Source: Sphagnum magellanicum (taxonomy: Eukaryota > Streptophyta > Sphagnopsida > Sphagnales > Sphagnaceae). From it: DNA of 64,000 nt. Shown here piece after piece: positions 1-34,850 of the stretch (position 1 is the stretch's first letter; each line of letters opens with the position of its first letter). Position numbers and translations under genes: made by a program. Location of the stretch: contig CM038916.1 in the NCBI GenBank assembly GCA_021904315.1, positions 3,472,001 to 3,536,000 of the forward strand, in the 5' to 3' direction. A model generated the notes under the pieces. The model was not told where the DNA came from and did no database searches. It worked only from the letters and a program-made list of their open reading frames with translations.

Positions 1-697
1 GAATATGTGTTTCCAAGCTCTGCAATTGTGGGTATCACAAATGTCCAGCCAAGCATACATCAGTGCACACTCACTATGACAAGTGCATGAAATGGGAGTA
101 TGGAGCCAAGTTTCGAGAATGGCCAATGCCAAAGAGGTTTGTGAGGGTCCATCCTGCTCCTGCAAACTCAAATGCTCGATTGGATTGCAATACCACCTGT
201 ACTGATGATTTTGTGAAACACCCCTTTGGTCCACGTGAGTCGATGCGCCCTGTTCCCAGGGTTGAGATAATAGTCCAATGCAGTCAGACACAACTTACAG
301 TGTGGACTATTGGGACAAGTCCAAGAACATGCAACCAAGGAAAAAAATGGCTCCTCAAACTCACCATGGCAGTGGCAAGTTCTGTGGAGACACTACTTAC
401 AATGTGGATTTTGGGGATCGTGGTAAGGGTTCTCCAGTTGTAGTTGTCAAACATGGATGCAGTCTTGAATCCTCAGGAGCCAAATTCAATGGGGATACCA
501 CTTACCATGATGATTTCAGGAAGTGGAACTTACCCAAAAAGTATGTTCATGTCTCAAGAGATTCTGGAACCTCTGGACCTTTTGCTGGTGCAACCACTTA
601 CCAAACTGACTTCAAGGGTCAACCCATTGCCCAAAAATGCCCTGTTTTGGCTCATGGCAAACCTACATTTATCTGTGGAGATCATATGTGCTATTAG
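1..697 (+). pseudogene. SAXO: SAXO-like axonemal microtubule protein, copy A (5' cut by window, frameshifted)
   Basis: SAXO/STOP (FAM154) proteins bind and stabilise axonemal microtubules of cilia and flagella; in plants that means swimming sperm. The N-terminal cysteine cluster typical of the family is present (CVSKLCNCGYHKC, bases 6-44), followed by repeated modules of about 30-35 residues built on T-T-Y-x-x-D-(F/Y/L), for example TTYSVDYW, TTYNVDF, TTYHDDF and TTYQTDF. The reading frame runs to about base 270, then one base is missing compared with copies B and C; the remainder continues in the next frame (from 278) to the TAG at 695-697. The third base triplet of the cysteine motif encodes Ser where B and C have Cys. 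The frameshift separates the N-terminal cysteine region from four or more microtubule-binding modules, so this copy is probably dead. The start lies outside the window. Confidence 0.8.
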
Positions 698-2270
698 ATG
701 TAAAACATATGTTCATCTGCAGACATTCAAGTTTTAATACAAGTGATAACAATGTAGTGACATTATTCATTAAATGGGTTGTTTAGGGATCTGTGACTTC
801 TTTTTGCTGGCAAGACACCAAGTACCGCATTGGCTCCTATTAATTGCAGAAAAGTCAACCTTTCTTTTCTCATTTCCTTTTCACTCCCTGGAGATTTGCA
901 AGGGGAGATGGATTCAGTCAAGAGGGAGGAATTCTACAAGTAGAGCTACTACTGTTTAGTGGGTTTTGAAGGTAATATGACTGGCATTTCTGTTGTTGAC
1001 AACGCATGCAATGTCTTCAGAGATAGGAGGTCTTTCAAGATTTAAGGTGCAACATTGTGGTTTGCATTCTCCTCAACTCATGTGCAACTTCTTGCTTGCT
1101 TCCTTTAAGGTCTGGAACTTCCCTGCAGAGTGGTTTTTTTTCTTGTGTCACTCTCGGTTCCTGCCACGATGGGAAGAGGTTTGATTTGAAATCTTTCACC
1201 TCATGGGTGCAGGAATTGATTGAAATTGTCAGCCCATAAGATTTCTCTCTTCAAGCAAGCTGAACTGTGTAATATTTCATTGAAGTCTGTGGAATTTGGG
1301 TGGAAAATCTCAAGATGGGCTGTTCACAAATAGTTATAGAATGAACTGCAGTAGATGATGATGTCTATCCAGACAGGCGGCAGAAGTCTCAACCACCTAA
1401 AAAATGAGTAACTTCAATAGAAGAAATCAAATCAAAAGCATACAAGAGGTTTTGAATCTGCACACAGAAGAAACCTGAGGATAACGTTGCCATCTCAAAT
1501 CCAAGAATCACACCCGTGCCCAAGGGTAAGAATCTTCTTAGAAGTGATCTGAAACTCGATAATCAGACCAAAAACCGAACCTCACATCTTCCAAAGCGCC
1601 AGTACTGCGAATCTGAGAGCAGGAAAAATGACAGGAACAGGCGTAAAGATCCTATTCTGAAGCCAAAAAAGAGAGAAAACGTAAAATGGTCCAGTGAATT
1701 GCACCAAATCAGTATGAACTACTAAGGACATTCGGCGATTCAGATGGTGAAAACACACAAGCACGACAGAATCCAAAACCTCCAGTAAAAGAGAAGCACT
1801 GCGACATCAGAATCAGACCAGAACAAAGCGAAAAAAAAAAACATTCAAAGTTATTGTCAGCTTGGACAGGCATCGAAGAAAATCGAGTTCCAAAACCGCA
1901 AGATCAGACAATATCAGAGGGCACAAACACGAAGAGACAAGAAAAAAGAGCCCGATGATCTCCGACAATGCCACATCTCTGAAGCGAAACAGATAAAGCT
2001 AGAAAGTTACAACGGACGCAAACAGTAAATTTCTAGTCAAGAAAGGCAAGAAAGGAGACACAGAAAGCCTCCAAAAACTCACAATGTATCAGAAGAACAA
2101 AAGGGCGGAAACAGTTTCGTCTTATTATTCGTTTCCCTGAAAGCCCCTGCACCTTCGAGAAGAGAGAAAACAGAGGGATTTGTAAGCAAAATCGCGTTGC
2201 GAAGCTATAATACTCAAAACAGAGATAGAAGAGCACAAAAACAATCGAACACAAGTATTGAAAAGTTCAA
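698..2270. other. 3' flank of SAXO copy A; no supported gene
   Basis: The first 650 bases after the SAXO stop are conserved in all three units and are likely 3' UTR and flank. From about 1500 to 2260 the + strand is strongly A/G-rich and gives Lys/Arg/Ser-rich open stretches on + and hydrophobic ones on -. These stretches carry stops and differ between units by indels that ignore reading frame, so I do not call genes here. Confidence 0.5.
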
Positions 2271-2280
2271 ACAAGGAACA

Positions 2281-2597
2281 TGTCTAGCACCACACACCTG
2301 AAATTTGAATTGAATAAATTGCCACCGCACTTCGTTCGACTTCGACACAAATCAATCCTTGCTTGCTTGCTGCAGCTGCAATGGCGAAGAAGAAGAAAAC
2401 CAGAAGAAGCGGAAGAGGAGAGGCGAAGGCGATGGAAGTGCGATGGAAGTGCAGAGGACGTCGTCCCCCCTCTCTTCTGCCACCTTTTCCTCCAATTACT
2501 ACTAGTCTCTGCTGCCTTCATAAACGAAATGTCTTGGATTCGTCATCCATGGGGACACGTTATTCATCCAAGACGGTGGCCTCCGATTCTCATAATG
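2281..2597 (+). other. GC-rich exon-like block, possible orphan first exon
   Basis: The block is GC-rich against AT-rich neighbours. An ATG at 2381 opens a basic N-terminus (MAKKKKTRRSGRG) and the frame stays open to a good-looking splice donor, AAT|GTGAGTATC, at about 2596. No downstream exon could be matched before the AT-rich spacer. In unit B the same block is split by the LINE insertion. It may be the stranded first exon of a gene duplicated without its body, or simply transcribed leader sequence. Confidence 0.25.
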
Positions 2598-2670
2598 TGA
2601 GTATCTGTGTACTACTAAGCTATCTATCTATGAAAGAAGGAAGTTTGTTTGTTACTTTGAGATCTTGGGA

Positions 2671-2793
2671 ACCATAGTGTCTCTTCCCCCACTCTTGGTA
2701 CCATTGGAAAGCCATAGCATCTCTTGTGGTGCTCTTGGTACCATTGGAAAGCCATAGTATCTTTTGTCACACTGTTGGTACCATTGGAAAGCC
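2671..2793. repeat. 40-bp tandem repeat, about 3 copies
   Basis: TTGGTACCATTGGAAAGCC recurs at 2695, 2735 and 2775, a period of exactly 40, with a weaker partial copy just before. The intervening text follows ATAGCATCTCTTGTGG with a few changes. The same core also occurs singly near 4178, and the array is repeated in unit B at 13498-13622. Confidence 0.85.
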
Positions 2794-3177
2794 TTTGATG
2801 AGTAGGTGTGTCCGGAGTTGGTTTGATGCTGTTTTGACCTAAGGCGAAAGAAAGTCATAACCATGCATTTCTCAAATGCCCTGACCCTAGGTAACTTGAC
2901 ACACAGCACAAATCTATCTATAAACATAGGTGTTTGTTTTGTTTTTGTTTGGATGTGATCATGCGATAAGGTAGGATGCCGTATGATCATATCATTAAGC
3001 TTTATGTCATTTCTTAATATGGATCATAGGAGCTTTCAACATACAACTTGAGCTTTCACTTTCTGTTGTTGTGCATATCAATGATTATCAAAAAAAATTC
3101 TTATTCTTTCATATGGTTTTCAATAATATATAATTATTTATGTCAATGTCAAATTTAATTTGAATTAATATAATTAT

Positions 3178-3223
3178 CATGGGTACGAAAAGACACATGA
3201 TAATTTGTCTTTTTATATCCATG
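3178..3223. repeat. Hairpin-forming inverted repeat, unit A
   Basis: Two 18-base arms (CATGGGTACGAAAAGACA and TGTCTTTTTATATCCATG) surround a 10-base loop. Three of the 18 positions are not Watson-Crick pairs, and some of these can pair as G-U. The unit B version (14850-14895) has only one mismatch. A shorter palindrome, TCAAATTTAATTTGA, lies just upstream. Confidence 0.7.
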
Positions 3224-5187
3224 TTGGTAGTTAGAGAAAAGGGAGGTAATTATTAAGAAAAGTAAAATGAGGTAGTTATTTCTAAAAGAAAAAATTTGAT
3301 GTTTTACGGAAGACCATACATTAGGAATTACAATAAGCCCATTGAAGGGATGCTTATTAAGAATCGACTTTTAAACATTTAGAACAATTAAAACTTTTAT
3401 TCGTGACATAACATCACATATCCTTGTCACAGTTCTCTAAAATGCTTTTCATTCACTTTCGTACGTCATTAAGTCGATAGGCCATAAGCAATCATTTGCA
3501 AACATGAACACACTTCTGAAAAGCACACGCCCCATTAACATTTATTAGTGGAATTTATTTCCTTAAATGCACATAAAGCTCTCTTTGAAAGTGTCTCAAT
3601 GAGTGTTTATGACAATATTAGAGTTATCCGTAATGTCATGTCCTGTTGGGCCAGAGTTGCACCCCTCAATTGATGCTTCATGCCCTCATGGCTGTTGTCG
3701 GCAAAGTAATGAGATTTTACTAAATAAGGGTATGAAATACTGAGACTCAGGATTCAGTGCACGAGGCGCTAAATCATTTATAGCTTCAGTACACATTGCA
3801 GGAGCAGTGATTAGTTGAAGGCGTTCAGAAAAAGAAAGGACAGCGCAAAGTCAGTTTAGCACCCAATTTGCTGCTAAACTGAGTTTCATGCCCCGTTGAA
3901 GCCCAGGGTACCTGCTTGTAGTTCCTGTTTTATGAAATCTCATCCACTATGCGACCAAACGGGGGGTTCCGGTCCGTCTTTTCCTGACTTTATGGATAAC
4001 TTTAATGTCTGACTATATTACCATCTTCGTGTTTAAGTGGTCTCATCTCATGTGTCTAAGATTGTCCTAGAAAACCGATTCCGAACACCTTCCATAAGAC
4101 ATGTTATCGTAGCACGCAACAAAGTTAAAGCATCCTACCTTAACTCATAACCCTCCCAATCCATGGGTCCCTCTTCACTTTTGGTACCATTGGATAGTCC
4201 TCAACAAGGTAATTGCACATTTATTGTTTCAAAATGCTCAAATCAATGAAGCAAAAGTTATTGAATTTTAAATGATTTTTGTCTTTGAAAACCAATTTTT
4301 TTCTTAAATCATAATTTTTAATAAATGAATCCCATTTTGATTAGAATAATATTAGAACGCATGACCTTATAACAGGTTTAAAGAGGTTTGATATACTTGA
4401 ACCAATGGCACAAGAGCTTCCTGATGATTAATTAATTTTTAAAATCAAAGAAGACTTGTAAAATAAAACTTTAACATATTTAATTCTGCCTAAATCTGCT
4501 CAGGTGATTATGGTGCGCGGCGGCCAATTTGGCCACCAAGGTAGATTCTGCAAAAATACCTGCTTTAGTTTGGATCCCCTTCCTAAAACATCAGAGAGTG
4601 GCTTAGAGTGGCTTGGCTAAGGCTGATGATTCGAGCTCTGAGCATGCCCAAAGACTCACCAATGGACTTGCTGGGAGTTGGAATTGACCCTAACTGGCCC
4701 ACTATGGTGCATTCATAGACCACAACGCTCCGAAGTTCACATACACTAAAAGAATTTTATCAGTTCTATTGTTATTAATATTAATGTACCTTGTGTTGTT
4801 GCCCAAGTGTAAAACTAGTTACTGAACTAATTTTTCCTTTCAAAGCATTTTTTGTAATTTAATTAAATTTTTCATGTCAAAAAATTACTCAAAATTCAAT
4901 ATTTCTCACATCTTATGTCTAAATTTTTCCCCATTCACCTTCATTAAATCTTTACTCACAAAGGGCTTCCCACTAATACCAAGAGTGTGTCCAAACTCCC
5001 TTATAGTTTTAAGACAAGTACAGTCCAATATTTGCACTAGGAGAGATACCATATTAGTGAAGCACCTTTCCAAGACACCAAAGTCATGAAAAATTGTTAT
5101 GTACTTTTTAGTTTGAGAGTATTGGGAACTATGATTGTTTTTTGCATGCATGGCATAATGGAGACATCATATATAATAGATTTTTAA

Positions 5188-5217
5188 AATTATTATTATT
5201 GTTATTATTATTATTTC
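5188..5217. repeat. ATT trinucleotide microsatellite
   Basis: An interrupted run of ATT/GTT triplets. The unit B counterpart at about 16988-17020 has a longer and purer run, so the locus is length-variable between duplicates. Confidence 0.8.
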
Positions 5218-5952
5218 GGTATGTGCCAAGTAAAAGGACATCTAAGAGATACATAAGTCTTTTCACATTGGATGGACAAGGATTTTTTGGTTCTCTTTTC
5301 ATGAAATCAGATTTGGGTTGGGCTATTCTTGTTATCATTGAAGTCCTTTCTCTTGACCTAGCTGCACTGATATATTGAAGAGTCATGACACTTTCATTTT
5401 AGCCAACCTATATACCTTTGAAGAGTTAGAATTTTGGGCACAGGATAAGAAATAAAGTGTGACATCTACTATTTGAACACAACTTGGGAAACACATTACA
5501 AGAACATCATTTGGAACCATCAAAAAAACATTCTGAAAAATATATGTACACACATTGGGAACACCAGCAAGGTCGAAAATAGGTGGCCCCCATCCCCCAC
5601 CCTCCCTCTCCACCCACCCTTCCTCAAAAAACAAAAGGAGAGAAAACATTCTGAGAATCATATGTACACACATTGCGAACACCAGCAAGACCCAAAAGAG
5701 TAGCCCCAAGTGCCTCACCACCCTCGCTCAAGAGTCAAATAGTCATGAGGGTTTAGGGTTTAAGCCCTCCCCTAACCTAGTCTCTTGACCGTCAGCAGTC
5801 TCTTGCCCGAGGCCGAGGCTTCTTTCTTTGCTCATTACTACAGCGAGCACTTGTCTCCGCCCTCAATTGCTGCAAAGTCTGTGATCATTTCTCTTGTGAA
5901 CAGCACGATTTTAAGCACGAACATCTTATCTGTGAAGCTGCATTGATAACTG

Positions 5953-7104
5953 TTAACCTGCTCGATGGAACTTGGGCCAGCTCGCCAGAAGATCAGGAGG
6001 AATTTTGTAGTCCTTCTTCTCCAATCTCTCTAAGTGTTGTTGCACCATCTCCTTGGTGTACTGGCTAGGTGCGAAGTTTGTGATAGCATCCTCCCAGCCA
6101 TGGAAATGCAATGCTACCATGTCTACACATCTGGCTGCTTCTTCTTCTGTGGGATGCAAACCCAAGTAACGGTCTTCTTTCCTGATGATCCGGCTCCCAC
6201 CTGCTGCAGCACTCGACGCTGTGGTAGTGTAGCCAATGCGAGCTTCCCACTTTTTGCCACTGCTGTGCTTGCTTACTCCCTTGAAACGGGAAGTTCCGCG
6301 ACTGAAACAAACGGCATTCCTTCTGAAGGACCATATGTAGTCTCTGGTGTCCAGAGCTTCCAGCCTGGGGAATTCAGAAGCGTAGGCTCCAGGATCGTTG
6401 AAGTTAAGCTCGTACTTGTCGTTTTTCCTCAGCTTCAGCGCCACCAGGTCGTGTACCCTGACAGCTTCGTCCTCAGTCTCGTAGGCGCCCAAGTAAAGCT
6501 GTCCCTATCCTTGGTCTTTCCTCACCGGGTCCAGATCACCTAGCCATATGTGAGCCTCCCATAACTTGGACTTGGAATGCAAGCCGACGCCTTTGAAGAT
6601 GGACGTGGCCCTCTCCTGGGTGGATGGCACGTTGGGATACTTGCGCTTTTGGGGACGGGTCGTTTCCGCTGCTGCTGCTGCAGTGAGCTCGCAGCTCATA
6701 GTTCCTTTGACCATTCTCTTTGGTTTCTTGGAAACCGGAGGACCCGCTGCAATTTCAGAAGCACCTGTACTTCTGGTGGCCTGCTCTTTGAGATCAATTG
6801 GCCGGTCCATGCTGCCATCAATTCTTCGCTTTGATTTCTTGCGAGCATCTCGTTCAGCGCGACGTGGTAACCTCTCAGCTTGCACTCGAACTAGACTTCC
6901 AGGACGCATAAGCTGGTCATGAGATTCTGCAGGTCTAGGAGCTGCGGATGGCACTACTGGCTGCTGCTGTCGCTGATCTGCACGATCTTCACAAATGGTC
7001 CCGCGGATGCTGGGGGCTTTATCACTTGCAGCAGCCATTGCTTCGAGAACTTTAACAAGGTCGTTGTCATACTCATGATTCATGTCCACAAAGGTATCGG
7101 CCAT
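5953..7104 (-). pseudogene. Double AP2-domain transcription factor, copy A (nonsense codon in first AP2 domain)
   Basis: The reading frame starts at ATG 7104 (MADTFVDMNHEYD), 384 codons in all, and is colinear with intact copy B. It is interrupted by TAG at 6507-6505, where copy B has CAG, inside the first AP2 domain just before YLGAYETEDEA. The frame then continues open through the second AP2 domain (FKGVSKHSSGKKWEARIGY) to the stop at 5953. AP2-family factors with two AP2 domains bind DNA and regulate development; loss of most of domain 1 and all of domain 2 should abolish that. Unlike copy B this copy keeps 26 extra linker residues, including a basic KKPKR stretch and a short alanine run. 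It is probably a pseudogene unless the TAG is polymorphic. Confidence 0.85.
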
Positions 7105-7981
7105 TGTGATGATGAGAACCTTGAGACTAAAATCCACGCTTCTTGGAGCTGTTGCAGGTCTTAATATAATCTGCGCGAAAATTCGACTTGGGTCAGGGAA
7201 CTATATCGTAGAAGCTGCTCTCATATTCTTACTCAACATGTCGATAGAGCGTCACCATGGGTCTAAACTACTAGAGACCTTAATGAATGGAAATGAGCAA
7301 TTGCTCCTGACCCCAAAAAAAAACATACTCATGAGCGTTACAAAACCATCTCCGAGAAGCTCATGGGACAAGACCTGAATTCTCGACTCCATGACCGAGA
7401 GCTTCTTCATTGATAAGCGATGAAAAAACATGAGTATAAATATATATGCAGATGGATTAAATACCTTGAAACAGCTGATGATCAGTCCTCCAACCGTTGA
7501 TCGTGTCGAGAAGAAGCGGCGGCGCCAGCAGCACCAGCAGCACCTGGCGCTGGCGACGGCGTCGAAAACAACAACTTGCAAGATCGACTCTTACAACACA
7601 GTAGCGATGAAAGATTATAAAGAGAGAGTGGGCCCAAGAGAAAGTGTCCGCACAGGAAACACCTGAATTCTCTCCGTATGATTGCTCAGGGTTTTCTAAG
7701 GGAGACGAAGCTGGCTGACTAGCTAGCTGGCAGAGAGCATTGATTTTGCGGGCTCGCACAATATAATGACGCGCGATCTCAGCTCTACATAAAAAACAGT
7801 AAATGGGGAGGAAAAAATGGAAGGGGCCAGAGAGCGAGGGCCAGAGAGAGAGAGAGAGGAGGAGGAGGAGGAGGAGGAAGAAGCTTGGGGGAAGAGGAGG
7901 GAGACTGGAGGGTGGTGTGGGGAGAGGGGGGGAAGGGAAGGGAGGGTAGGGGAAGAGAGTCGGGGGGTGATATATATAGTC
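7105..7981 (-). promoter_or_regulatory. AP2 copy A promoter and 5' leader with CT tract
   Basis: On the - strand a TATATATA box lies at 7978-7971, followed by a leader of up to about 830 bases. The leader is strongly CT-rich: on + it reads as (GA)n then (GGA)n between 7840 and 7885. In-frame sequence upstream of the ATG is open for 11 codons but has only a GTG, so the ATG at 7104 is preferred. The same layout recurs in unit B with one TATA box at the same relative place. A leader intron cannot be excluded. Confidence 0.5.
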
Positions 7982-9730
7982 ACAGTGACATTCCCGGCGA
8001 CATCGCCGACCGATTCCAGCGTCGAAGGCCTCGAACAATGGTTTTTAGCCAGATTTGGCTACAAGCTAAATATGAATTTGAAATTTCGTACTCTCTTCCT
8101 AAAATTTTTGGCTACCTACTTGAACCGTGTATAGAAATATGGAGATTCTTCAAACTAAAATTTGGTCGAATTCTGGCTAATGAAAATCTGACAAAACACA
8201 CTTGATTTTTTGCACTTTTAAGTTTTTAATTTCGGCTTTGGGTATATGTAGTGAGGAATTAAAAAAAGGCTGCGCTCAAGACTAACTGTAGGGTTTTGGA
8301 GGCTCTTGAAACTGACTGTAGGTTTTGGTGTGTCTGTAGGTTTACATCAGCTCTGCACACACAAGTTTCTCTTAAGCAAGTTTTGCAGGTGTCATGAGGG
8401 CTCCCCTCATCCTCAAACACTAAACCCTAATTTTTTCTCTTTAATTTATGGGGAACTTGCAAAAATTAATTTTCTAAGGATCATGTTTGAACATGTGCCT
8501 TTATAATTGGCTAACAAGGGTCAAAGCTTTTTTTTTCCAGGAAAGTGAAGTCTCTGTGCAAATGGTCCATGTTTAGATCATAAGTTTTAATCATAAATTT
8601 GGAGTTGCTAATTTAGAAAGCAACTTTCAACATGAACAGTTTTTGAATGAATTGAAATTTACAGAGTTTTTTGAACATGTGGGTTGGGAGATAAAAGCTT
8701 GAATTGAAAGAGTCTAAGATGATCTCCTTCAAGTTCATGATTCTTAGTTATATTTTCCAAGCTGAACTTGTTCACCATCTCCAAATGTTTAATGACACCT
8801 AACTATTGTTCACCTAATTGGAAATTTAACCACCTTGTGATCACAAGACAAAATTTGAGTGTAAAATAAGGTGAGCAAGTTTTCATAACAACAAAATCTC
8901 GATTACCCAAGAACAAAATTAATTACTTTGGCTATGTTTTCTTCATTGCTCGCACCATAGTTTCTAGGTTCTTGAACAATAAAAAGGCATTAGACACTTG
9001 AAACTTGCTAGAGTTTTGTAGTGCAAACACAATAGGCATGTAGTGAAGACATGCCTAGATGCATGAGAACTCCATTGAAACACCATCATATGCCAATCCT
9101 GCACCTACACTGCTTGAAAGATTTGATAGTTAGTTACACAAGTTAAGTTAGATTGAATTGTAGATTTGACTTGCTTGTTTCCAATTGTGATTACTGCTTC
9201 CTTATGTGCCATGGGATCCACATCATGCCCAATGAATGTATGCAACTTTGGATGTCCTTTGATTATGTACATGACATGATCCAGTATCAAGTGCCTTTGG
9301 AGTTCATGTTTCTCAACAGTTTTAAGCCTAGCAGAAATGCTCATGATGGCTATGAAAGTGGATCAGAAGATGATACTCAAAAGATGGAATTTTGAGACAC
9401 TGTGTGTTAAAAAGTGCATGCTGCTCATGAGCAAAATTTCAGTAGACCACCAGCTCCTTCACCAAGGTGCTTGAGTTTGAACTTTGTTCTATTGTTGTCT
9501 TTGATTGTTCTAATGGATCGAGCAAAAGTAAATCTTGCCAATTTGCAACATGTCTATTTGCATGGATTCTTTTTCCACAATATAAAGCAAGTCACTTGTG
9601 TACATATTCATATTTGCACAGCAAGTCAGTCATTAGCACTGAGTTGGGATTTGACCATATGGAAATCAGATCATGTGTGTGTAATGTAGTCTGAGATGAA
9701 TTTACTGTTGCTGTAAGCTAATATGATGAC
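7982..9730. other. Shared upstream spacer between divergent AP2 copy A and SAXO copy B
   Basis: The AP2 gene runs leftward and the next SAXO gene runs rightward, so this 1.75-kb AT-rich spacer is the upstream region of both. Open frames here (for example 9153-9395) change mostly at amino-acid-altering positions between units, so they are not genes. No further element was recognised. Confidence 0.5.
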
Positions 9731-10477
9731 ATGTGGAATAAGTCTGGCTCTAGTTACCATGAATGTGGTCAGGCTGGAAGAATATGTGTTTGCAAGCTCT
9801 GCAATTGTGGGTATCACAAATGTCCAGCGAAGCATACATCAGTGCACACTCACTATGACAAGTGCACGAAATCGGAGTATGGAGCCAAGTTTCGAGAATG
9901 GCCAATGCCAAAGAGGTTTGTGAGGGACCATCCTGCTCCTGCAGACTCAAATGCTCGATTGGATTGCAACACCACCTACACTGATGATTTTGTCAAACAC
10001 CCCTTTGGTCCATGTGAGTCAATGCGCCCTGTTCCCAGGGTTGAGATAACAGGTCCAATGCAGTCAGACACAACTTACAGTGTGGACTATTGGGACAAGT
10101 CCAAGAACATGCAACCAAGGAAAAAAATGGCTCCTCAAACTCACCATGGCAGTGGCAAGTTCTCTTGAGACACTACTTACAATGTGGATCTTGTGGATTG
10201 TGTAAAGGGTTCTCCAGTTGTAGTTGTCAAACATGGATGCAGTCTTGGATCCACAGGAGCCAAATTCAATGGGGAGACCACTTACCATGATGATTTCAGG
10301 AAGTGGAACATACCCAAAAAGTATATTCATGTCTCAAGAGATTCTGGAACCTCTGGACCTTTTGCTGGTGCAACCACTTACCAAACTGACTTCAAGGGTC
10401 AACCCATTGCCCAAAAATGCCCTGTTTTGGCTCATGGCAAACCTACATTTATCTGTGGAGATCATATGTGCTATTAG
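9731..10477 (+). pseudogene. SAXO: SAXO-like axonemal microtubule protein, copy B (nonsense codon mid-gene)
   Basis: The 249-codon frame starts at ATG 9731 (MWNKSGSSYHECGQ). Residues about 19-33 are the cysteine cluster CVCKLCNCGYHKC expected at the N-terminus of SAXO proteins. About six Mn-type modules follow (SEYGAKFREWPMPKR; NTTYTDDF; DTTYSVDYW; DTTYNVD; ETTYHDDF; ATTYQTDF), and the protein ends CGDHMCY. A TGA at 10166-10168 replaces the TGT-GGA context seen in A and C (here TCT-TGA), cutting the product after 145 residues and removing half the modules. Animal SAXO proteins stabilise axonemal microtubules; a role in sperm flagella is inferred. It lies divergent from AP2 copy A and tandem with copies A and C. 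The true start could be in an upstream exon. Confidence 0.85.
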
Positions 10478-12178: not shown

Positions 12179-12197
12179 AGAAGAAAGCCAGAAGAAG

Positions 12198-13082
12198 AAA
12201 CCCCGAGAGGGGAGGGAGGCAGCAGCCCCATCAAACATTAAAGAAATCCAAGAAATACAAGGGGGCCAAGAAGCACCACACGATGGTGACACCATCAACC
12301 CCAAAGATGCCTAAGTGGCACCATTCCGCCTTAAAGGCTTGATCAATCCTATCTTGAATACTAGGGTCGCGGGAGGACCGAAGGGAATTAATGGCCTTCC
12401 AAGTGGCCATTCCAACCTCAACAGTAGCAACCCAGGCTTGTTGACGGATTTTCCTAGAGGAATACTGGTTATCAAAATGCTTCCGGCATCTCTCAGTCCA
12501 AAGAAAGTAGAGGATAAAACTGCGAAGGATGTCAAGCGGTTGTCTGATGTAGGAGAAGCCTCCTACATGGTACCCTTGGACTCCGGGAGGGTCATCTTCT
12601 CTTTCGAAGACAGTTTCACCAAGCAAGACGAAAGGCCAGGAAAAAATGATGTCATTAGGCGCTCCCCATTTTTGCCATATGTGATAGAAGGCCTCCCAAG
12701 CCCGTTTGGCGAGAGGACATTCAAGGAGACAATGTTGAGGGGATTCAGGGGCCTCCTCAGTGCAAACCTTGCACGTGGGGAGGATCCCCATGCATTGTAA
12801 CCATGTGCCAACTGGGAGACCCCGGTTTAAAGTGAGCCATATGAGAGTGCCGACCTTCCGCGGTCGGGCGTTATGCCAGATTCTGGCAATAACTTGTGTG
12901 ACGGTGGAGTTTTGCAAGTTTAACCTTTGAATGAAGGAGCAGATGTTGGCGCTCTGGGTGGGTTTCCTTGCATTTCGGTAACCCCGCTTTACTGAATAGC
13001 CGAAGAAAGGAGAGTCACCCATTTGTGAGGAGGCTTACCAGTGCCACTCTCCTGGGTCCCAGGGAAGCCCACCCAGAGCGCT
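12198..13082 (-). mobile_element. 5'-truncated LINE (non-LTR retrotransposon) insertion
   Basis: An 885-bp block absent from unit A is flanked by the 19-bp direct repeat AGAAGAAAGCCAGAAGAAG (12179-12197 and 13083-13101). Unit A has this site once (with one base change), uninterrupted, at about 2388-2406. A long target duplication and coding sequence for the C-terminal end of a LINE polyprotein identify a target-primed insertion, - strand oriented. No poly(A) tail is visible at the 3' end (near 12198). The 5' end (13063-13082) is an inverted copy of 12948-12967 (18 of 20 bases), suggesting rearrangement during insertion. Confidence 0.9.
12231..13022 (-). CDS. LINE ORF2 C-terminal fragment with zinc-binding reverse transcriptase-associated domain
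   Basis: A 263-codon open frame matches the zf-RVT type domain found after the reverse transcriptase in plant LINEs. Key features are IWHNARPRKVGTLIWLTLNR, then the cysteine/histidine cluster C-K-V-C-x7-PESPQHCLLECPLAKRAW, then a WxxFxxxW segment. It has no reverse transcriptase or endonuclease domain because of 5' truncation. The open frame suggests a recent insertion. Upstream of the ATG at 13022 there is an in-frame TAA near 13037, at the edge of the rearranged 5' end. No independent function is expected. Confidence 0.85.
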   Translation of the reverse strand: MGDSPFFGYSVKRGYRNARKPTQSANICSFIQRLNLQNSTVTQVIARIWHNARPRKVGTLIWLTLNRGLPVGTWLQCMGILPTCKVCTEEAPESPQHCLLECPLAKRAWEAFYHIWQKWGAPNDIIFSWPFVLLGETVFEREDDPPGVQGYHVGGFSYIRQPLDILRSFILYFLWTERCRKHFDNQYSSRKIRQQAWVATVEVGMATWKAINSLRSSRDPSIQDRIDQAFKAEWCHLGIFGVDGVTIVWCFLAPLYFLDFFNV

Positions 13083-13101
13083 AGAAGAAAGCCAGAAGAA
13101 G

Positions 13102-13300
13102 CGGAAGAGGAGAGACGAAGGCGATGGAAGTGCAGAGGACGTCGTCCCCCCTCTCTTCTGCGACCTTTTCCTCCAATTACTACTAGTCTCTGCTGCCTTC
13201 ATAAACGAACTGTATTGGATTCGTCATCCATGGAGACACATTATTCATCCAAGACGGTGGCCTCCGATTCTCATAATGTGAGTATCTGTGTATTACTAAG
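13102..13300 (+). other. Second half of the GC-rich exon-like block, unit B
   Basis: Continues the homology to 2407-2619 of unit A after the LINE. The candidate splice donor AAT|GTGAGTATC is retained near 13277. If this was an exon, the LINE now separates its start codon from its donor. Confidence 0.3.
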
Positions 13301-13450
13301 GTAGGTGTAAAGGAGCTGAAGGAGGGGTGGCAAGGCTTGAATTTAAATGAGATCCAGATTATTAACTTCATGTGATTCCTTGGTGGATGTGTAGCCATTC
13401 TTGGCTAATCTAGCTAGGAATCAAAAAAGAGAATCTGGTAATAACCTTAG
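13301..13450. mobile_element. Small 150-bp insert with short inverted ends, MITE-like
   Basis: Sequence present only in unit B, between homologous flanks that meet at about 2619/2620 in unit A. Including the flanking CTAAG, the ends read CTAAGGT and ACCTTAG, a 7-base inverted pair. A clean target duplication is not visible, so a non-autonomous DNA transposon is only one explanation; a deletion in unit A is another. Confidence 0.4.
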
Positions 13451-13497
13451 TCTATCTATGAAAGAAGGAAGTTTGTTTGTTATTTTGAGATCTCCTG

Positions 13498-13622
13498 AAC
13501 CATAGTGTCTCTTGCCCCACTCTTGGTACCATTGGAAAGCCATAGCATCTCTTGTGGTGCTCTTGGTACCATTGGAAAGCCATAGTATCTTTTGTCGCGC
13601 TCTTGGTACCATTGGAAAGCCT
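13498..13622. repeat. 40-bp tandem repeat, unit B copy
   Basis: Same TTGGTACCATTGGAAAGCC core as at 2671-2793, three times at a 40-base period, with the same flanking order. Confidence 0.85.
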
Positions 13623-13713
13623 TTGATGAGTAGATGTGTCCGGAGTTGGTTTGATGCTGTTTTGACCTAAGGCGAAAGAAAGTCATAACCATGCATTTCT
13701 CAAATGCCCTGAC

Positions 13714-14549
13714 TGTCGCAACCCCAGTTTGGCCAAGTGTGGGGGTGAAGCCCAACACTTGGAAAAGTTGGAGGTTGGGAGTTTTCCGGGACTCCCGAAT
13801 GTTCAGAGCTCGACAGCAAGGGGCAAAACACCTCGCATTGGGGTGTTCTTGAAGTCATTGAAAAGGTCTTGAAACGTAGATATCGAAAATGCCCTCGCAT
13901 TGGCAATTTGGACATCTGCAGCCCAAGTTATGGGCAAAAGAAGGGCCGAGAGTCAAACTGGCAGTTTGACTCCCGACCACTAAAAGTCGGGAATCGACCT
14001 CTTCCCGATGTCCGATTTGAGCGTGCGACATGGCGTTGGAAAGATCTCGACGAGGGCTACAACTTTGCTTCAGACCTCGTCGCGATCGGAGGTCAGGGCG
14101 AGAAGATATGACCTCCCAAAGTCCCGGGACTCCAACCGGGACGATTTCGGGACAATTTCGGGACTCCAACTTGGGAGTCCCGGGAATTTGTGCCATTTGG
14201 ATGTAGCCTCGGTGACGAGCTGCAGAGAATACTATATGGGGGAAGGTGGTGGCTTCCCCCGAGTCCGGGCCGTGGTGAATCTTGTGTGTCCAAGTGCCCG
14301 TGGCAAGTCCCAACACCAAAGGGTGTCCCGAATGCTAAACTAACCTCGTGGGGTTGGTTTTTTTTTTGGATGCAGAATCACACAAGCTAAGCTAGTCCCT
14401 CTTCCTAGTCTAATCCCGGGGCTCTCAATTCGACCCTCTACCCCTTTCTAGAGTTGGAAGTCGGGAGCGTGCTACCAAGTTCAACTTTCCGCAACTTGAC
14501 TTTGTGAAACCCTCAAATGTGTTTCACCCCGTGACTTGGGAGCGCGTCA
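13714..14549 (+). mobile_element. Solo LTR, 836 bp, with perfect 5-bp target duplication
   Basis: The block begins TGTCGCAACCCC and ends GAGCGCGTCA, the canonical TG...CA termini of an LTR. It is flanked by CTGAC on both sides (13709-13713 and 14550-14554). Unit A has the empty site with a single CTGAC near 2880. No internal retroelement sequence is present, so it is best read as a solo LTR left by recombination between two LTRs. A diverged copy in the opposite orientation lies at 54399-55217. Open frames inside it are not genes. Confidence 0.9.
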
Positions 14550-14849
14550 CTGACCCTAGGTGATAACTTGACACACAGCACAAATCTATCTATTAACATA
14601 GGTGTTTGTTTTGTTTTTGTTTGGATGTGATCATGGGATAAGGTAGGATGCCTTATGATCATATTGTTAAGCTTTATGTCATTTCTTAACATGAATCGTA
14701 GGAGCTTTCAACATACAACTTGAGCTTTCACTTTCTGTTGTTGTGCATATCCATGATTATCAAAAAAGATTCTTATTCTTTCATATGGTTTTCAATAATA
14801 TATAATTATTTATATCAATGTCAAATTTAATTTGAATTAATATAATTAT

Positions 14850-14895
14850 CATGGATATGAAAAGACACATGATAATTTGTCTTTTCATACCCATG
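14850..14895. repeat. Hairpin-forming inverted repeat, unit B
   Basis: Arms CATGGATATGAAAAGACA and TGTCTTTTCATACCCATG pair at 17 of 18 positions around a 10-base loop. It is the duplicate of 3178-3223. Confidence 0.75.
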
Positions 14896-15350
14896 TTGGT
14901 AGTTAGAGAAAAGGGAGGTAATTATTAAGAAAAAAAATGAGGTAGTTATTTCGAAAAGAAAAAATTTGATGTTTTAGGGAAGACCATACATTAGGAATTA
15001 CAATCAGCCCATTGAAGAGATGCTTATTAATAATCGACTTTAAACATTTATAACAATTAAAACTTTTCTTTGTCACATAACATCACATATCCTTGTCACA
15101 ATTCTCTAAAATGCCTTTCAATCACTTTCGTACGGCATTAAGTCAATAGGCCATAAGCAATCATTTGAAAATATGAACACACTTCTCAAAAGCACACACC
15201 CCACTATCATTTATTAGTGAAATTTATTTCCTTAAATGCACATAAAGCTCTCTTTGAAAGTGTCTCAATGAGTGTTTATGACAATATTAGAGATATCCGT
15301 AAGGTCATGTCCTCTTGGGCCAGAGTTGCACCCCTCAATTGATGCTTCAT

Positions 15351-15618
15351 CCCCTCATGGCTGTTGTCGGCAAAGTAATGAGATTTTACTAAATAAGGGT
15401 ATGAAATACTGAGACTCAGGATTCAGTGCACGAGGAGCCAAAACATTTATAGCTACAGTACACATGGCAGGAGCAGTGATTAGTCCCCTCATGGCTGTTG
15501 TCGGCAAAGTAATGAGATTTACTAAATAACGGTATGAAATACTGAGACTCAGGATTAAGTGCACGAGGCGCTAAATCATTTATAGCTTCAGTACACATTG
15601 CAGGAGCAGTGATTAGTC
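15351..15618. repeat. 134-bp tandem duplication, two copies
   Basis: The stretch starting CCCCTCATGGCTGTTGTCGG occurs at 15351 and again at 15485. Unit A has it once (near 3683), so the second copy arose after the segmental duplication. Confidence 0.85.
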
Positions 15619-17763
15619 GAAGGCGTTCAGAAAAAGAAAGGACAGGGCAAAGTCAGTTTAGCACCCAAATTGCTGCTAAACTGAGTTTCATGCCCCGTTG
15701 AAGCCAAGGCCACCTGCTTTTAGTTCCCGTTTTTTGAAATCTCATCCACTATGCGACCAAACAGGGGGGTTCCGGTCCGTCTTTTCCTGACTTTACGGAT
15801 AACTTTAATGTCTAACTATATTATCACCTTCGTGTTTAAGTGGTCCCCTCTCAGCTGTCTAAAATTCTCCTAGAAAACTGATTGGGAACACCTTCCATAA
15901 GACATGTTATCGTAGCACGCAACAAAGTTAAAGCATCCTACCTTAACTCATAACCCTCCCAATCCATGGGTCCCTCTTCACTTTTGGTACCATTGGAAAA
16001 TCCTCGACAAGGTAGTTGCACATTTATTGTTTCAAAATGCTCAAATCAATGAAGCAAAAGTTATTGAATTTTAAATGATTTTTGTCTTTGAAAACACATT
16101 CTTTTCTTAAATCATAAATTTTTAATAAATGAATCCCATTTTGATTAGAATAATATTAGAACGCATGATCTTATAATAGGTTTAAAGAGGTTTCACATAC
16201 TTGAGCCAATGGCACAAGAGCTCACTAATGATTAATTAATTTTTAAAATCAAAGAAGACTCTTAAAATAAAACTTTAACATATTTAATTCTGCCTAAATC
16301 TGCTCAGGTGATTATGGTGCGCGGCAGCCAATTTGGCCACCAAGGTAGATTCTGCAAAAATACCTGCTTTAGTTTGGATCCCCTTCCTTAAAACATCAGA
16401 GAGTGGCTTAGAGTGGCTTGGCTAAGGCTGATGATTCGAGCTCTGAGCATGCCCGAAGACTCACCAATAGACTTCCTGGGAGTTGGAATTGACCCTAACT
16501 GGCCCACTATGGTGCATTTCATAGACCACAATGCTCCGAAGTTCACATACACTAAAAGAATTTTATCAGTTCTATTGTTATTAATATTAATGTACCTTGT
16601 GCTGTTGCCCAAGTGTAAAACTAGTTACTGAACTAATTTTTCCTTTCAAAACATTTTTTTTAATTTAATTAAATTTTTCATGACAAAAATTACTCAAAAT
16701 TCAATATTTCACATCTTAGGTCTAAATTTTTCCCCATTCACCTTCATTAAATCTTTACTCACAAAGGGCTTCCCACTAATACCAAGAGTGTGTCCAAACT
16801 CCCTTATAGTTTTAAGACAAGTACAGTCCAATATTTGCACTAGGAGAGATACCATATTAGTGAAGCACCTTTCCAAGACACCAAAGTCATGAAAAATTGT
16901 TATGTACTTTTTAGTTTGAGAGTATTGGGAACTATGATTGTTTTTTACATGCATGGCATAATGGAGACATCATATATAATAGATTTAAAATATTATTATT
17001 ATTATTATTATTATTATTATGATTTCCATATGTGCCAAGTAAAAGGACATCTAGGAGATACATAAGTGTTTTCACATTGGATGGACAAGGATTTTTTGGT
17101 TCTTTTTTCATGAAATCAGATTTGGGTTGGGCTATTCTTGTTATCATTGAAGTCCTTCCTCTTGACCTAGCTGCAATGATATATTGAAGAGTCACGACAC
17201 TTTCATTTTAGCCAACCTATATATACCTTTGAAGAGTTAGAATTTTGGGCAAAGGACGAGAAATAAAGTGTGACATCTACTATTTGAACGCAACTTGGGA
17301 AACACATTACAAGAACATCATTTGGAACCATCAAAAAAACATTCTGAAAAATAAATGTACACACATTGGGAACACCAGCAAGGTCCAAAATAGGTGGCCC
17401 CCATCCCCCACTCTCCCTCTCCACCCACCCTTCCTCAAAAAACAAAAGCAGAAAAAACATTCTGAGAATCATATGTACACACATTGCGAACACCAGCAAG
17501 ACCCAAAAGAGTAGCCCCAAGTGCCTCACCACCCTCCCTCAAGAGTCAAATAGTCATTAGGGTTTAGGGTTTAAGCCCTCCCCTAACCTAGTCTCTTGAC
17601 CGTCAGCAGTCTCTTGCCCGAGTCCGAGGCTTCTTTCTTTGCTCATTACTACAGCGAGCACTTGTCTCCGCCCTCAATTGCTGCAAAGTCTGTGATCATT
17701 TCTCTTGTGAACAGCATGATCTTAAGCACAGACATCTTATCTGTGAAGCTGCATTGATACCTG

Positions 17764-18837
17764 TTAACCTGCTCGATGGAACTTGGGCCAGCTCGCCAGA
17801 AGATCAGGAGGAATTTTGTAGTCCTTCTTCTCCAATCTCTCTAAGTGTTGTTGCACCATCTCCTTGGTGTACTGGCTAGGTGCGAAGTTTGTGATAGCAT
17901 CCTCCCAGCCATGGAAATGCAATGCTACCATGTCTACACATCTGGCTGCTTCTTCTTCTGTGGGATGCAAACCCAAGTAACGGTCTTCTTTCTTGATGAT
18001 CCGGCTCCCACCTCCTGCAGCACTCGACGCTGTGGTAGTGTAGCCAATGCGAGCTTCCCACTTTTTGCCACTGCTGTGCTTGCTTACTCCCTTGAAACGG
18101 GAAGTTCCGCGACTGAAACAAACGGCATTCCTTCTGAAGGACCATATGAAGTCTCTGGTGTCCAGAGCTTCCAGCCTGGGGAATTCAGAAGCGTAGGCTC
18201 CAGGATCGTTGAAGTTAAGCTCGTACTTGTCGTTTTTCCTCAGCTTCAGCGCCACCAGGTCGTGTACCCTGACAGCTTCGTCCTCAGTCTCGTAGGCGCC
18301 CAAGTAAAGCTGTCCCTGTCCTTGGTCTTTCCTCACCGGGTCCAGATCACCTAGCCATATGTGAGCCTCCCATAACTTGGACTTGGAATGCAAGCCGACG
18401 CCTTTGAAGATGGAGGTGGCCCTCTCCTGGGTGGATGGCACGTTGGGATACTTGCGCTTTAGGGAACGGGCCGTTTCCGCTGCAATTTCAGAAGCGCCTG
18501 TACTTCTGGTGGCCTGCTCTTTGACATCAATTGGCCGGTCCATGCTGCCATCAATTCTTCGCTTTGATTTCTTGCGAGCATCTCGTTCAGCGCGACGTGG
18601 TAACCTCTCAGCTTGCACTCGAACTAGACTTCCAGGACGCATAAGCTGGTCATGAGATTCTGCAGGTCTAGGAGCTGCGGATGGCTCTACTGGCTGCTGC
18701 TGTTGCTGATCTGCACGATCTTCACAAATGGTCCCGCGGATGCTGGCGGCTTTATCACTTGCATCACCAATTGCTTCGAGAACGTTAACAAGGTCGTTGT
18801 CATACTCGTGATTCATGTCCACAAAGGTATCGGCCAT
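17764..18837 (-). CDS. Double AP2-domain transcription factor, copy B (intact)
   Basis: A 357-residue protein starts at ATG 18837; the frame is open a little further upstream but only with GTG. Two AP2 domains lie at residues about 143-210 (IFKGVGLHSKSKLWEAHIWL ... YLGAYETEDEA ... ALKLRKNDKYELNF) and about 246-318 (RFKGVSKHSSGKKWEARIGY ... YLGLHPTEEEA ... ALHFHGWEDAITNF), joined by a linker like that of the AP2/AINTEGUMENTA class. The usual YRGV is FKGV in both, so this is a divergent member. A basic RKKSKRR at 88-94 may be the nuclear localisation signal, and a short glutamine run is at 44-48. It has 26 fewer linker residues than copy A through an in-frame 78-bp deletion. Its role is DNA binding and transcriptional regulation; targets are unknown. 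Confidence 0.85.
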   Translation of the reverse strand: MADTFVDMNHEYDNDLVNVLEAIGDASDKAASIRGTICEDRADQQQQQPVEPSAAPRPAESHDQLMRPGSLVRVQAERLPRRAERDARKKSKRRIDGSMDRPIDVKEQATRSTGASEIAAETARSLKRKYPNVPSTQERATSIFKGVGLHSKSKLWEAHIWLGDLDPVRKDQGQGQLYLGAYETEDEAVRVHDLVALKLRKNDKYELNFNDPGAYASEFPRLEALDTRDFIWSFRRNAVCFSRGTSRFKGVSKHSSGKKWEARIGYTTTASSAAGGGSRIIKKEDRYLGLHPTEEEAARCVDMVALHFHGWEDAITNFAPSQYTKEMVQQHLERLEKKDYKIPPDLLASWPKFHRAG

Positions 18838-19734
18838 TGTGATGATGAGAACCTTGAGACTAAAATCCACGCTTCTTGGAGCTGTTGCAGGTCTTAATAT
18901 AATCTGCGCGACAATTCGACTTGGGTCAGGGAACTATATCGTCGAAGCTGCTCTCATCTTCTTACACAACATATCGATAGAGCGTCACCATGGGTCTAAA
19001 CTACTATAGACCTTAATGAATGGAAATGAGCAATTGCTCCTGACCCCAAAAAAAAACATACTCATGAGCGTTACAAAACCATCTCCGAGAAGCTCATGGG
19101 ACAAGACCTGAATTCTCGACTCCATGACCGAGAGCTTCTTCATTGATAAGGGATGAAAAAACATGAGTATAAATATATATGCAGATGGATTAAATACCTT
19201 TAAACAGCTGATGATCAGTCCTGCAACCGTTGATCGTGTCGAGAAGAAGCGGCGGCGCCAGCAGCACCAGCAGCACCAGCAGCACCTGGCGCTGGCGACG
19301 GCGTCGAAAACAACAACTTGCAAGATCGACTCTTACAACACAGTAGCGATGAAAGATTATAAAGAGAGAGTGGGCTCAAGAGAAAATGTCCGCACAGGAA
19401 ACACCTGAATTCTCTCCGTATGATTGCTCAGGGTTTACTAAGGGAGACGAAGCTGGCTGACTAGCTAGCTGGCAGAGAGCATTGATTTTGCGGGCTCGCA
19501 CAATATAATGACGCGCGATCTCAGCTCTACATAAAAAATAGAAAATGGGGAGGAAAAAATGGAAGAGGCCAGAGAGCGAGAGCCAGAGAGAGAGAGAGAG
19601 AGGAGGAGGAGGAGGAGGAGGAGGAGGAAGAAGCTTGGGGGAAGAGGAGGAAGACTGGAGGGTGGTGTGGGGAGAGGGGGGGAAGGGAAGGGAAGGGAGG
19701 GTAGGGGAAGAGAGTCGGGGGGTGATATATATAG
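18838..19734 (-). promoter_or_regulatory. AP2 copy B promoter and 5' leader with CT tract
   Basis: TATATATA on the - strand at about 19733-19725, followed by a CT-rich leader (GA/GGA repeats on + at about 19587-19630, slightly longer than in unit A). A CAGCAGCAC repeat on + near 19258-19285 is also expanded relative to unit A. Same arrangement as at 7105-7981. Confidence 0.5.
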
Positions 19735-21484
19735 TCACAGTGACATTCCCGGCGACATCGCCGACCGATTCCAGCGTCGAAGGCCTCGAACAATGTTTTT
19801 TAGCCACATTTGGCTACAAGCTAAATATGAATTTGAAATTTCGTACTCTCTTCCTAAAATTTTTGGCTACCTACTTGAACCGTGTATAGAAATATGGAGA
19901 TTTTTTAAACTAAAATTTGGTCGAATTCTGGCTATTGAAAATCTGACAAAACACACTTGATTTTTTGCACTTTTAAGTTTTTAATTTCGGCTTTGGGTAT
20001 ATGTAGTGAGCAATTAAAAAAAGGCTGCGCTCAAGACTAACTGTAGGGTTTTGGAGGCTCTTGAAACTGACTGTAGGTTTTGGTGTGTCTGTAGGTTTAC
20101 ATCAGCTCTGCACACACAAGTTTCTCTTAGCAAGTTTTGCAGGTGTCATGAGGGCTCCCCTCATCCTCAAACACTAAACCCTAATTTTTTCTCTTTAATT
20201 TATGGGGAACTTGCAAAAATTAATTTTCTAAGGATCCTGTTTGAACATGTGCCTTTATAATTGGCTAACAAGGGTCAAAGCTTTTTTTTTCCAGGAAAGT
20301 GAAGTCTCTGTGCAAATGGTCCATGTTTAGATCATAAGTTTTAATCATAAATTTGGAGTTGCTAATTCAGAAAGCAACTTGCAACATGAACAGTTTTTGA
20401 ATGAATTGAAATTTACAGAGTTTTTTGAACATGTGGGTTGGGAGATAAAAGCTTGAATTGAAAGAGTCTAAGATGATCTCCTTCGAGTTCATGATTCCTA
20501 GTTATATTTTCCAAGCTGAACTTGTTCACCATCTCCACATGTTTAATGACACCTAACTATTGTTCACCTAATTGGAAATTTAAACACCTTGTGATCACAA
20601 GACAAAATTTGAGTGTAAAATAAGGTGAGCAAGTTTTCATAACAACAAAATCTCGATTACCCAAGAACAAAATTAATTACTTTGGCTATGTTTTCTTCAT
20701 TGCTCGCACCATAGTTTCTAGGTTCTTGAACAATAAAAAGGCATTAGACACTTGAAACTTGCTAGAGTTTTGTAGTGCAAACACAATAGGCATGTAGTGA
20801 AGACATGCCTAGATGCATGAGAACTCCATTGAAACACCATCATATGCCAATCCTGCACCTACACTGCTTGAAAGATTTGATAGTTAGTTACACAAGTTAA
20901 GTTAGATTGAATTGTAGATTTGACTTGCTTGTTTCCAATTGTGATTACTGCTTCCTTATGTGCCATGGGATCCACATCATGCCCAATGAATGTATGCAAC
21001 TTTGGATGTCCTTTGATTATGTACTTGACATGATCCAGCATCAAGTGCCTTTGGGGTTCATGTTTCTCAACAGTTTTAAGCCTAACAGAAATGCTGATGA
21101 TGGCTATGAAAGTGGATCAGAAGATGATACTCAAAAGATGGAATTTTGAGACATTGTATGTTAAAAAGTGCATGCTGCTCATCAGCAAAATGTCAGTAGA
21201 CCACCAGCTCCTTCACCAAGGTGCTTGAGTTTGAACTTTGTTCTATTGTTGTCTTTGATTGTTCTAATGGATCGAGCAAAAGTAAATCTTGCCAATTTGC
21301 AACATGTCTATTTGCATGGATTTTTTTTCCACAATATAAAGCAAGTCACTGGTGTACAGATTCGTATTTGCACAGCAAGTCAGTCATTAGCACTGAGTTG
21401 GGATTTGACCATATGGAAATCAAATCATGTGTGTGTAATGTAGTCTGAGATGAATTTACTGTTGCTGTAAGCTAATATGATGAC
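19735..21484. other. Shared upstream spacer between divergent AP2 copy B and SAXO copy C
   Basis: Near-identical to 7982-9730. No gene is supported. If it works as a two-way promoter, both flanking genes would share it. Confidence 0.5.
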
Positions 21485-22231
21485 ATGTGGAATAAGTCTG
21501 GCTCTAATTACCATGAATGTGGTCAGGCTGGAAGAATATGTGTTTGCAAGCTCTGCAATTGTGGGTATCACAAATGTCCAGCGAAGCATACATCAGTGCA
21601 CACTCACTATGACAAGTGCACGAAATCGGAGTATGGAGCCAAGTTTCGAGAATGGCCAATGCCAAAGAGGTTTGTGAGGGACCGTCCTGCTCCTGCAGAC
21701 TCAAATACTTGATTGGATTGCAACACCACCTACACTGATGATTTTGTCAAACACCCCTTTGGTCCATGTGAGTCAATGCGCCCTGTTCCCAGGGTTGAGA
21801 TAACAGGTCCAATGCAGTCAGACACAACTTACAGTGTGGACTATTGGGACAAGTCCAAGAACATGCAACCAAGGAAAAAAATGGCTCCTCAAACTCACCA
21901 TGGCAGTGGCAAGTTCTGTGGAGACACTACTTACAATGTGGATCTTGTGGATTGTGTAAAGGGTTCTCCAGTTGTAGTTGTCAAACATGGATGCAGTCTT
22001 GGATCCTCAGGACCCAAATTCAATGGGGATACCACTTACCATGATGATTTCAGGAAGTGGAACATACCCAAAAAGTATGTTCATGTCTCAAGAGATTCTG
22101 GAACCTCTGGACCTTTTGCTGGTGCAACCACTTACCAAACTGACTTCAAGGGTCAACCCATTGCCCAAAAATGCCCTGTTTTGGCTCATGGCAAACCTAC
22201 ATTTATCTGTGGAGATCATATGTGCTATTAG
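21485..22231 (+). pseudogene. SAXO: SAXO-like axonemal microtubule protein, copy C (early nonsense codon)
   Basis: Same 249-codon layout as copy B, with start ATG 21485, cysteine cluster CVCKLCNCGYHKC and the full series of T-T-Y modules. A TGA at 21710-21712 stands where B reads CGA (a C-to-T change in a CpG), ending the product after 75 residues, before nearly all modules. The rest of the frame is open to the TAG at 22229-22231, and it retains the TGT-GGA context lost in copy B. It is the last and truncated unit of the array. Reinitiation at a downstream ATG could give a fragment without the cysteine cluster, but loss of function is more likely. Confidence 0.85.
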
Positions 22232-22901
22232 ATGTAAAACATATGTTCATCTGCAGACATTCAGGTTTTAATACAAGTGATAACAATGTAGTGACATTAT
22301 TCATTAAATGGGTTGTTTAGGGATCTGTGACTTCTTTTTGCTGGCAAGACACCAAGTACCGCATTGGCTCCTATTAATTGCACAAAAGTCGAGCTTTCTC
22401 TTCTCATTTCCTTTTCACTCCCTGGAGATTTGCAAGGGGAGATGGATTCAGTCAAGAGGGAGGAATGCTACAAGTAGAGCTACTACTCTTTAGTGGGTTT
22501 CGAAGGTAATATGACTGGCATTTCTGTTGTTGACAACCCATGCAATGTCTTCAGAGATAGGAGGTCCTTCAAGATTCAAGGTTCAACATTCTGCTTTGCA
22601 TTCTCCTCAACTCATGTGCAACTTCTTGCTTGCTCATTTTTATTATTCCTTCAAGGTCTGGAACTTCCCTGCAGAGTGGTTTTTTTTCTTGTGTCACTCT
22701 TGGTTCCTGCCACCATGGTAACAGGTTTCATTTGAAATCTTTCACCTCATGGGTGCAGAATTGATTGAAATTGTCAGCCCATAAGATTCTCTCTTCAAGC
22801 AAGCTGAACTGTGTAACATTTCATTGAAGTCTGTGGAATTTGGGTGGAAAATCTCAAGATGGGCTGTTTTCACAAATAGTTATAGAATGAACTGCAGTAG
22901 A
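21534..22901. repeat. Tandem segmental duplication, unit C (truncated)
   Basis: Homology to units A and B stops abruptly after GCAGTAGA at 22901; B continues TGATGATGTC and C continues ATCGATC. This marks the right boundary of the array. C therefore has SAXO plus about 670 bp of 3' flank and no AP2 gene. Confidence 0.85.
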
Positions 22902-34490: not shown

Positions 34491-34497
34491 GTAAAGA

Positions 34498-34850
34498 GTT
34501 TAACCAGTAATAGATATAGGTTTTGTCAAAAAAGAGAAGTTTAGCCAAGAAAAGATATTGGTTTTGTCAAGAAAATAAGTTTAGCCAAAGAAGGTTATAG
34601 GTTTTGCCAATAGAAAAAAGTTTAACCAAAAAACATATATAAATTTTTTCAAGAGAAAAAAATTTAACCAAAAATCATATAAGTTTTGCCAAGAGATCAA
34701 AGTCTAACCAATAAAAAATATGATTTTTGTCAAGAAAAGAAAGTTTAGTTAAAAAGAGATATAAGTTTTGCAAAGACATAGAAATCTAATCAAGAATAGA
34801 CATAGGTTTAGCCAACAAGAGATATAGGTTTTGTCAAGAAAAGATAGAAA
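34498..34850. repeat. Degenerate minisatellite, units of about 40-50 bp
   Basis: Seven or eight imperfect units follow AGATATAGGTTTTGTCAAGA then AAAGTTTAGCCAAGA. It begins right where the homology between copies D and E ends, and copy E lacks it. Confidence 0.75.

Follow-up and report, generated by a model that had tools for sequence, protein, structure and literature searches.

Repeated pairing of a SAXO-like pseudogene and a double-AP2 gene in Sphagnum magellanicum is best explained by duplication of a single block

A block of DNA in which a short SAXO-like gene and a double-AP2 gene without introns lie in divergent orientation appears to have been copied repeatedly within one contig (C10) of the Sphagnum magellanicum assembly, and it is present also on a second (C11). 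We consider it very probable that the recurrent pairing of the two genes is a single juxtaposition which has been multiplied by segmental duplication, with the SAXO-like gene as a decaying passenger and the AP2 gene being homogenised among the copies. The stretch analysed here, referred to as the window, comprises 64,000 nucleotides (C10:3472001-3536000), and the search for further copies covered the whole assembly (438,994,042 bases in 31 contigs).

Layout of the tandem repeat

Comparison of the window with itself shows that positions 1-22901 form a direct tandem repeat (Table 1), in which the aligned pieces of the units are mostly 94-98% identical, a single 232-base piece being 91% identical. 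The first-pass annotation had described three units of both genes, in direct tandem and in opposite orientations. The direct tandem arrangement stands, as do the orientations, the SAXO-like gene lying on the plus strand and the double-AP2 gene on the minus strand. However, the window contains three SAXO-like copies and only two AP2 copies, because unit C ends past its SAXO copy; three complete SAXO plus AP2 units are thus ruled out. The natural pairs, AP2_A with SAXO_B and AP2_B with SAXO_C, are arranged head to head with about 2.6 kb between their members. SAXO_A has as its neighbour a truncated AP2 copy in inverted orientation, which lies 2.7 kb further left, beyond the window edge.

Compared with unit A, unit B has extra stretches of 904, 147, 841, 133 and 12 bases and lacks stretches of 78 and 11 bases. 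The two longest extra stretches correspond to insertions private to unit B. The retrotransposon fragment has at its ends a direct repeat of 18 bases or more, and the solo-LTR-like element has TG...CA ends with the 5-base direct repeat CTGAC on either side (both judged by eye). Within the 64-kb window, Rfam gave no matches at gathering scores.

Further along, the window holds another set of direct and inverted repeats (28793-43808; pieces 73-91% identical), inside which lie two open frames without a Pfam match. An open frame of 1007 amino acids (47951-50974, plus strand), free of introns, encodes an NB-ARC-LRR protein of the disease-resistance type; at the N-terminus it matches RPW8 weakly (22.6 bits against a cut-off of 30.4). 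Positions 51452-62989 (C10:3523452-3534989) are pieces of a further copy of the same block's far flank, matching sequence at 3.04 and 3.13 Mb; AP2 and SAXO matches are both absent from them.

Table 1. Repeat units, gene copies and insertions in the window (positions without contig name) and AP2 copies elsewhere in the assembly
Feature	Position	Strand	Remarks
Unit A	1-9779		continues past left window edge
Unit B	9780-21533		
Unit C	21534-22901		repeat ends at 22901, past SAXO_C
SAXO_A pseudogene	1-697	+	5' end 49 bases left of window; 1-base deletion after about 272
SAXO_B pseudogene	9731-10477	+	TGA at 10166-10168 (codon 146); paired head to head with AP2_A
SAXO_C pseudogene	21485-22231	+	TGA at 21710-21712 (codon 76); paired head to head with AP2_B
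AP2_A (right-way, winA)	5953-7104	-	single exon; TAG at 6505-6507 (codon 200), inside first AP2 domain
AP2_B (right-way, winB)	17764-18837	-	single exon, open, 357 aa; lacks 26 codons of copy A, in frame
Insertion private to unit B	12179-13082	-	non-LTR-type retrotransposon fragment, zf-RVT domain (3.5e-12); 904-base stretch
Insertion private to unit B	13714-14549		solo-LTR-like; 841-base stretch
Right-way AP2 copy 3020	C10:3020803		head-to-head pair with SAXO
Right-way AP2 copy 3056	C10:3056276		
Right-way AP2 copy 3142	C10:3142988		
Right-way AP2 copy 3152	C10:3152406		head-to-head pair with SAXO
Right-way AP2 copy C11	C11:2316413		head-to-head pair with SAXO
Inverted AP2 copy	C11:2322391-2323767		C-truncated
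Inverted AP2 copy	C10:3050778-3051923		C-truncated
Inverted AP2 copy	C10:3145446-3146585		C-truncated
Inverted AP2 copy	C10:3468095-3469216		C-truncated

Identity of the two genes

SAXO proteins are stabilizers of axonemal microtubules and kin to the STOP/MAP6 group. The SAXO-like reading given in the first-pass annotation is borne out by matches to proteins of known structure. SAXO_C, read with X at the stop, matches the SAXO1 chain 8ou0_D of the PDB (E=9.4e-10) and SPM1 (7miz, 2e-4), the portion following its stop gives E=7.5e-4 with 8glv_zj, a flagellar associated protein, and the open copy on C13 matches 8ou0_D at 1.7e-10, with several domain matches to this chain. What had gone unmentioned is that none of the three window copies is intact, the lesion being a different one in each, and that AP2_A too is interrupted by a stop. 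With SAXO1 the gene shares the N-terminal Cys motif C-x-C-x-x-C-x-C-G-x-H-x-C, aligning with 8ou0_D residues 8-113, and repeated TTY-x-x-D-F/Y units, which we take to be the microtubule-binding units known as Mn; the C13 frame contains five of these, or six counting a looser one (by eye). One Cys of the motif is changed to Ser in SAXO_A and one to Arg in the C11 copy. Unlike 8ou0_D, a chain of 477 residues, the gene has 248 codons, is broken in the window and scores below threshold in Pfam: where SAXO1-2 matched, it reached 17.2-22.9 bits (20-23 for two window readings) against a gathering score of 26.5, and it did not match the SAXO_A pieces, the SAXO_C pieces or the relative on C7.

The double-AP2 reading on the minus strand is likewise confirmed, by Pfam AP2 and by two-domain matches to WRI1. 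AP2_B aligns end to end with WRI1 (PDB 7wq5), linker and both domains included (E=1.3e-24), and its paired AP2 domains are joined by the conserved SFRR...FSRG linker of the two-AP2-domain class, to which ANT and PLT also belong. Different from WRI1, however, the second AP2 domain of AP2_B has 13 additional residues. The block copies score 33.8-34.7 bits with Pfam AP2, against a cut-off of 33.3, and a relative on C16 scores 27.4, below the cut-off.

PMC8831610 describes for AP2-family genes a 9-base microexon for VYLG within the first domain. Unlike the genes described there, AP2_B, the other open block copies and the C16 relative are single-exon at this site, the frame running through VYLG without flanking introns. 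Since the C16 relative too is one continuous frame, the intron loss probably predates these copies, and fresh retroposition of AP2 as their origin is rejected on the same ground. We therefore read the missing introns at VYLG as a probable intron loss, which would give no ground for excluding the gene from the AP2 family.

Copies of the block elsewhere in the assembly

The block is found in three clusters on C10 (3.0-3.5 Mb) and in one place on C11. Its pieces of more than 3 kb are 92.3-98.0% identical between places, and the repeats are therefore counted as one event multiplied. AP2_B matches 34 stretches of the assembly, including seven right-way copies, of which copy 3142 lacks the first 68 codons; more distant matches lie on C16, C4, C15 and C12, the C16 relative being open and 56% identical. 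SAXO has seven full-length places by DNA (five on C10, one each on C11 and C13) and one 3' piece on C10, and the C13 copy is an open frame. Among the matches listed (E<=0.001), none places AP2 on C13 or SAXO on C16. The list also has five remoter SAXO matches, four at 28-30% (C7, C9, C5 and C3) and one short (C11); the C7 relative is open, 303 amino acids long, and has kept the Cys motif. Four of the five are no more than about 400 kb away from the start of their contig (C3:13045, C9:44699, C5:331441 and C7:402549), and the short fifth lies at C11:4247671.

In five of the seven right-way AP2 copies a SAXO copy stands head to head at a distance of 2.6-3.2 kb. Of the remaining two, copy 3142 has been fused to the tail of SAXO through a deletion, and homology at copy 3056 stops short of SAXO. 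Both members are intact in neither of the two window pairs and in one of the five pairs in the assembly, that on C11. Homology between C13 and the block starts 293 bases before the SAXO start. In an unrooted tree built on 1.7 kb around SAXO, C13 sits among copies of the block, at distances of 1.5-4.2%, and the tree does not reveal which locus was the source. The idea of a mobile element with both genes as cargo was rejected, as the C13 junction letters show no target duplication by eye and the block ends vary between copies. Among the titles and abstract openings listed, no paper describing a SAXO-AP2 pair was found, which is weak evidence of absence.

Decay of the SAXO-like gene

All five full-length SAXO copies on C10 are broken. 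They diverge from each other like neutral DNA, without sign of protein-level constraint (pN 3.41%, pS 2.34%; coding 3.18%, flanks 3.26%), and SAXO_B and SAXO_C differ by ten amino-acid-changing or nonsense differences and by no silent one. Between C11 and C13, pN is 1.35%, pS 5.76% and flank divergence 4.16% (8/591 versus 9/156, Fisher p=0.003). Changes private to one copy show a corresponding pattern: the five C10 copies have 28 amino-acid-changing, three nonsense and two silent changes, whereas amino-acid-changing and silent changes number four and four in C11 and one and three in C13 (31:2 for C10 versus 5:7 for C11 and C13 together, p=0.0005). Given the kinship of the copies and possible exchange of sequence between them, the p values serve as guides.

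On these numbers SAXO looks to be under constraint at C13 and perhaps also at C11, where the stop codon is changed and a Cys of the N-terminal motif is lost; part of the C11-C13 signal could come from selection on the C11 copy. The C10 copies have diverged less from C13 in the coding region (2.3-3.1%) than in the flanks (3.8-5.4%), so that they too may have been constrained during part of their history. Of two shared frameshifts, one is common to the window copy A and copy 3156 and the other to copies 3156 and 3024, which points to exchange between these copies or to their common descent.

Similarity of the AP2 copies

Five of the seven right-way AP2 copies are open (winB, 3020, 3056, 3152 and C11). 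Over six copies, 3142 being left out, coding divergence is 1.36% against 3.20% in the flanks, about 2.4 times less, and this holds at both site classes (pN 1.34%, pS 1.46%, pooled over pairs). As the silent sites are as alike as the changing ones, gene conversion is the better reading, and the data point to it as the probable cause of the coding similarity. C10:3020800-3021954 and C10:3056273-3057427, which lie 35 kb apart, have no difference in 1155 coding positions and 84 differences in 3582 flanking positions (p=7e-11), the pattern expected of gene conversion with AP2 at its centre.

But might the AP2 gene itself be the reason why the blocks persist? Selection on AP2 dosage or sequence, with SAXO merely carried along, would agree with the finding that on C10 four of six right-way AP2 copies are open against none of five SAXO copies (p=0.06) and that segregating sites are fewer in the coding region (37/1071) than in the flanks (285/3530; p=3.5e-8). 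It would agree as well with the dN/dS of 0.43-0.45 for winA compared with 3020, 3056, 3152 and C11. However, pN and pS pooled over pairs are nearly equal, gene conversion accounts for the similarity no less well, and comparisons of winB with winA, 3020, 3056, 3152 and C11 give dN/dS of 1.26-2.3, mostly 1.3-2.3. Pairs involving 3142 give 0.28-0.63, so that single-pair values span 0.28-2.3 and constraint on AP2 may exist. As an account of why the blocks persist, we regard such selection as possible but unlikely.

The inverted AP2 copies

All four inverted AP2 copies are flanked by self-complementary arms derived from the first 68 AP2 codons. In the three on C10 the arms are 193-205 bases long and about 95% complementary, and in the copy on C11 they measure 321 bases at 98.4% and include part of the AP2 3' end. 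Arms of this kind could in principle yield a hairpin RNA that silences AP2. Then again, the four copies resemble one rearrangement copied along with the block, and the C10 arms have diverged by about 5%, so that we think a silencing role very unlikely. A wider scheme would have a working AP2-SAXO pair on C11 and, on C10, blocks that together with the inverted-repeat AP2 copies form a spreading self-silencing AP2 family dragging SAXO pseudogenes along; it appears to us less probable again.

Origin of the pairing

The first-pass annotation had left two options for the pairing, chance co-duplication or a linked developmental cassette. In the latter, one divergent regulatory region would serve both the AP2 factor and the sperm protein SAXO, with co-expression in antheridia. 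Such a cassette would account for the head-to-head order kept in most right-way AP2 copies and for the C11 pair, in which both frames are open. However, every copy of the pair belongs to one related block, and the copies are therefore not independent cases. Moreover, the SAXO copies on C10 are without exception broken and unconstrained among themselves, and open relatives of either gene exist on contigs without a match to the other (SAXO on C13, AP2 on C16). We hold the cassette to be highly improbable; it finds no support in the window and could apply at C11 only. The same observations favour co-duplication, the pair being found in the assembly solely inside copies of one block.

Barely credible, finally, is the suggestion that the stops and frameshifts are assembly errors in intact genes: both frameshifts are single-base deletions, which could in part be errors given the PacBio CLR reads named in the paper on the probable source assembly (PMC9946827), but either frameshift is common to two copies at the same column, three C10 SAXO copies have substitution stops at differing codons, and amino-acid-changing differences are in excess across the C10 copies.

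We thus return to segmental duplication of one block. Unequal crossing over and related exchange would have made the tandem units, and gene conversion would homogenise the AP2 copies, which may still act as transcription factors. SAXO would be a passenger whose decay on C10 is tolerated thanks to a functional copy elsewhere, most likely that on C13. A joint function of the pair would not be needed.

Conclusions

The arrangement resembles known tandem and segmental duplication clusters with unprocessed pseudogenes in its copies of a multi-gene block, its private transposon insertions, its differing lesions and its signs of gene conversion; the inverted AP2 copies are the only feature found that sets it apart. 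The AP2 copies offer a small natural case of similarity centred on one coding region. For annotation, the SAXO copies on C10 are best treated as pseudogenes, and the candidates for function are the copy on C13 and perhaps that on C11. More generally, the case shows that duplication of a block can give rise to a conspicuous recurring gene pair in a plant genome, while a passenger gene decays in each of the local copies.
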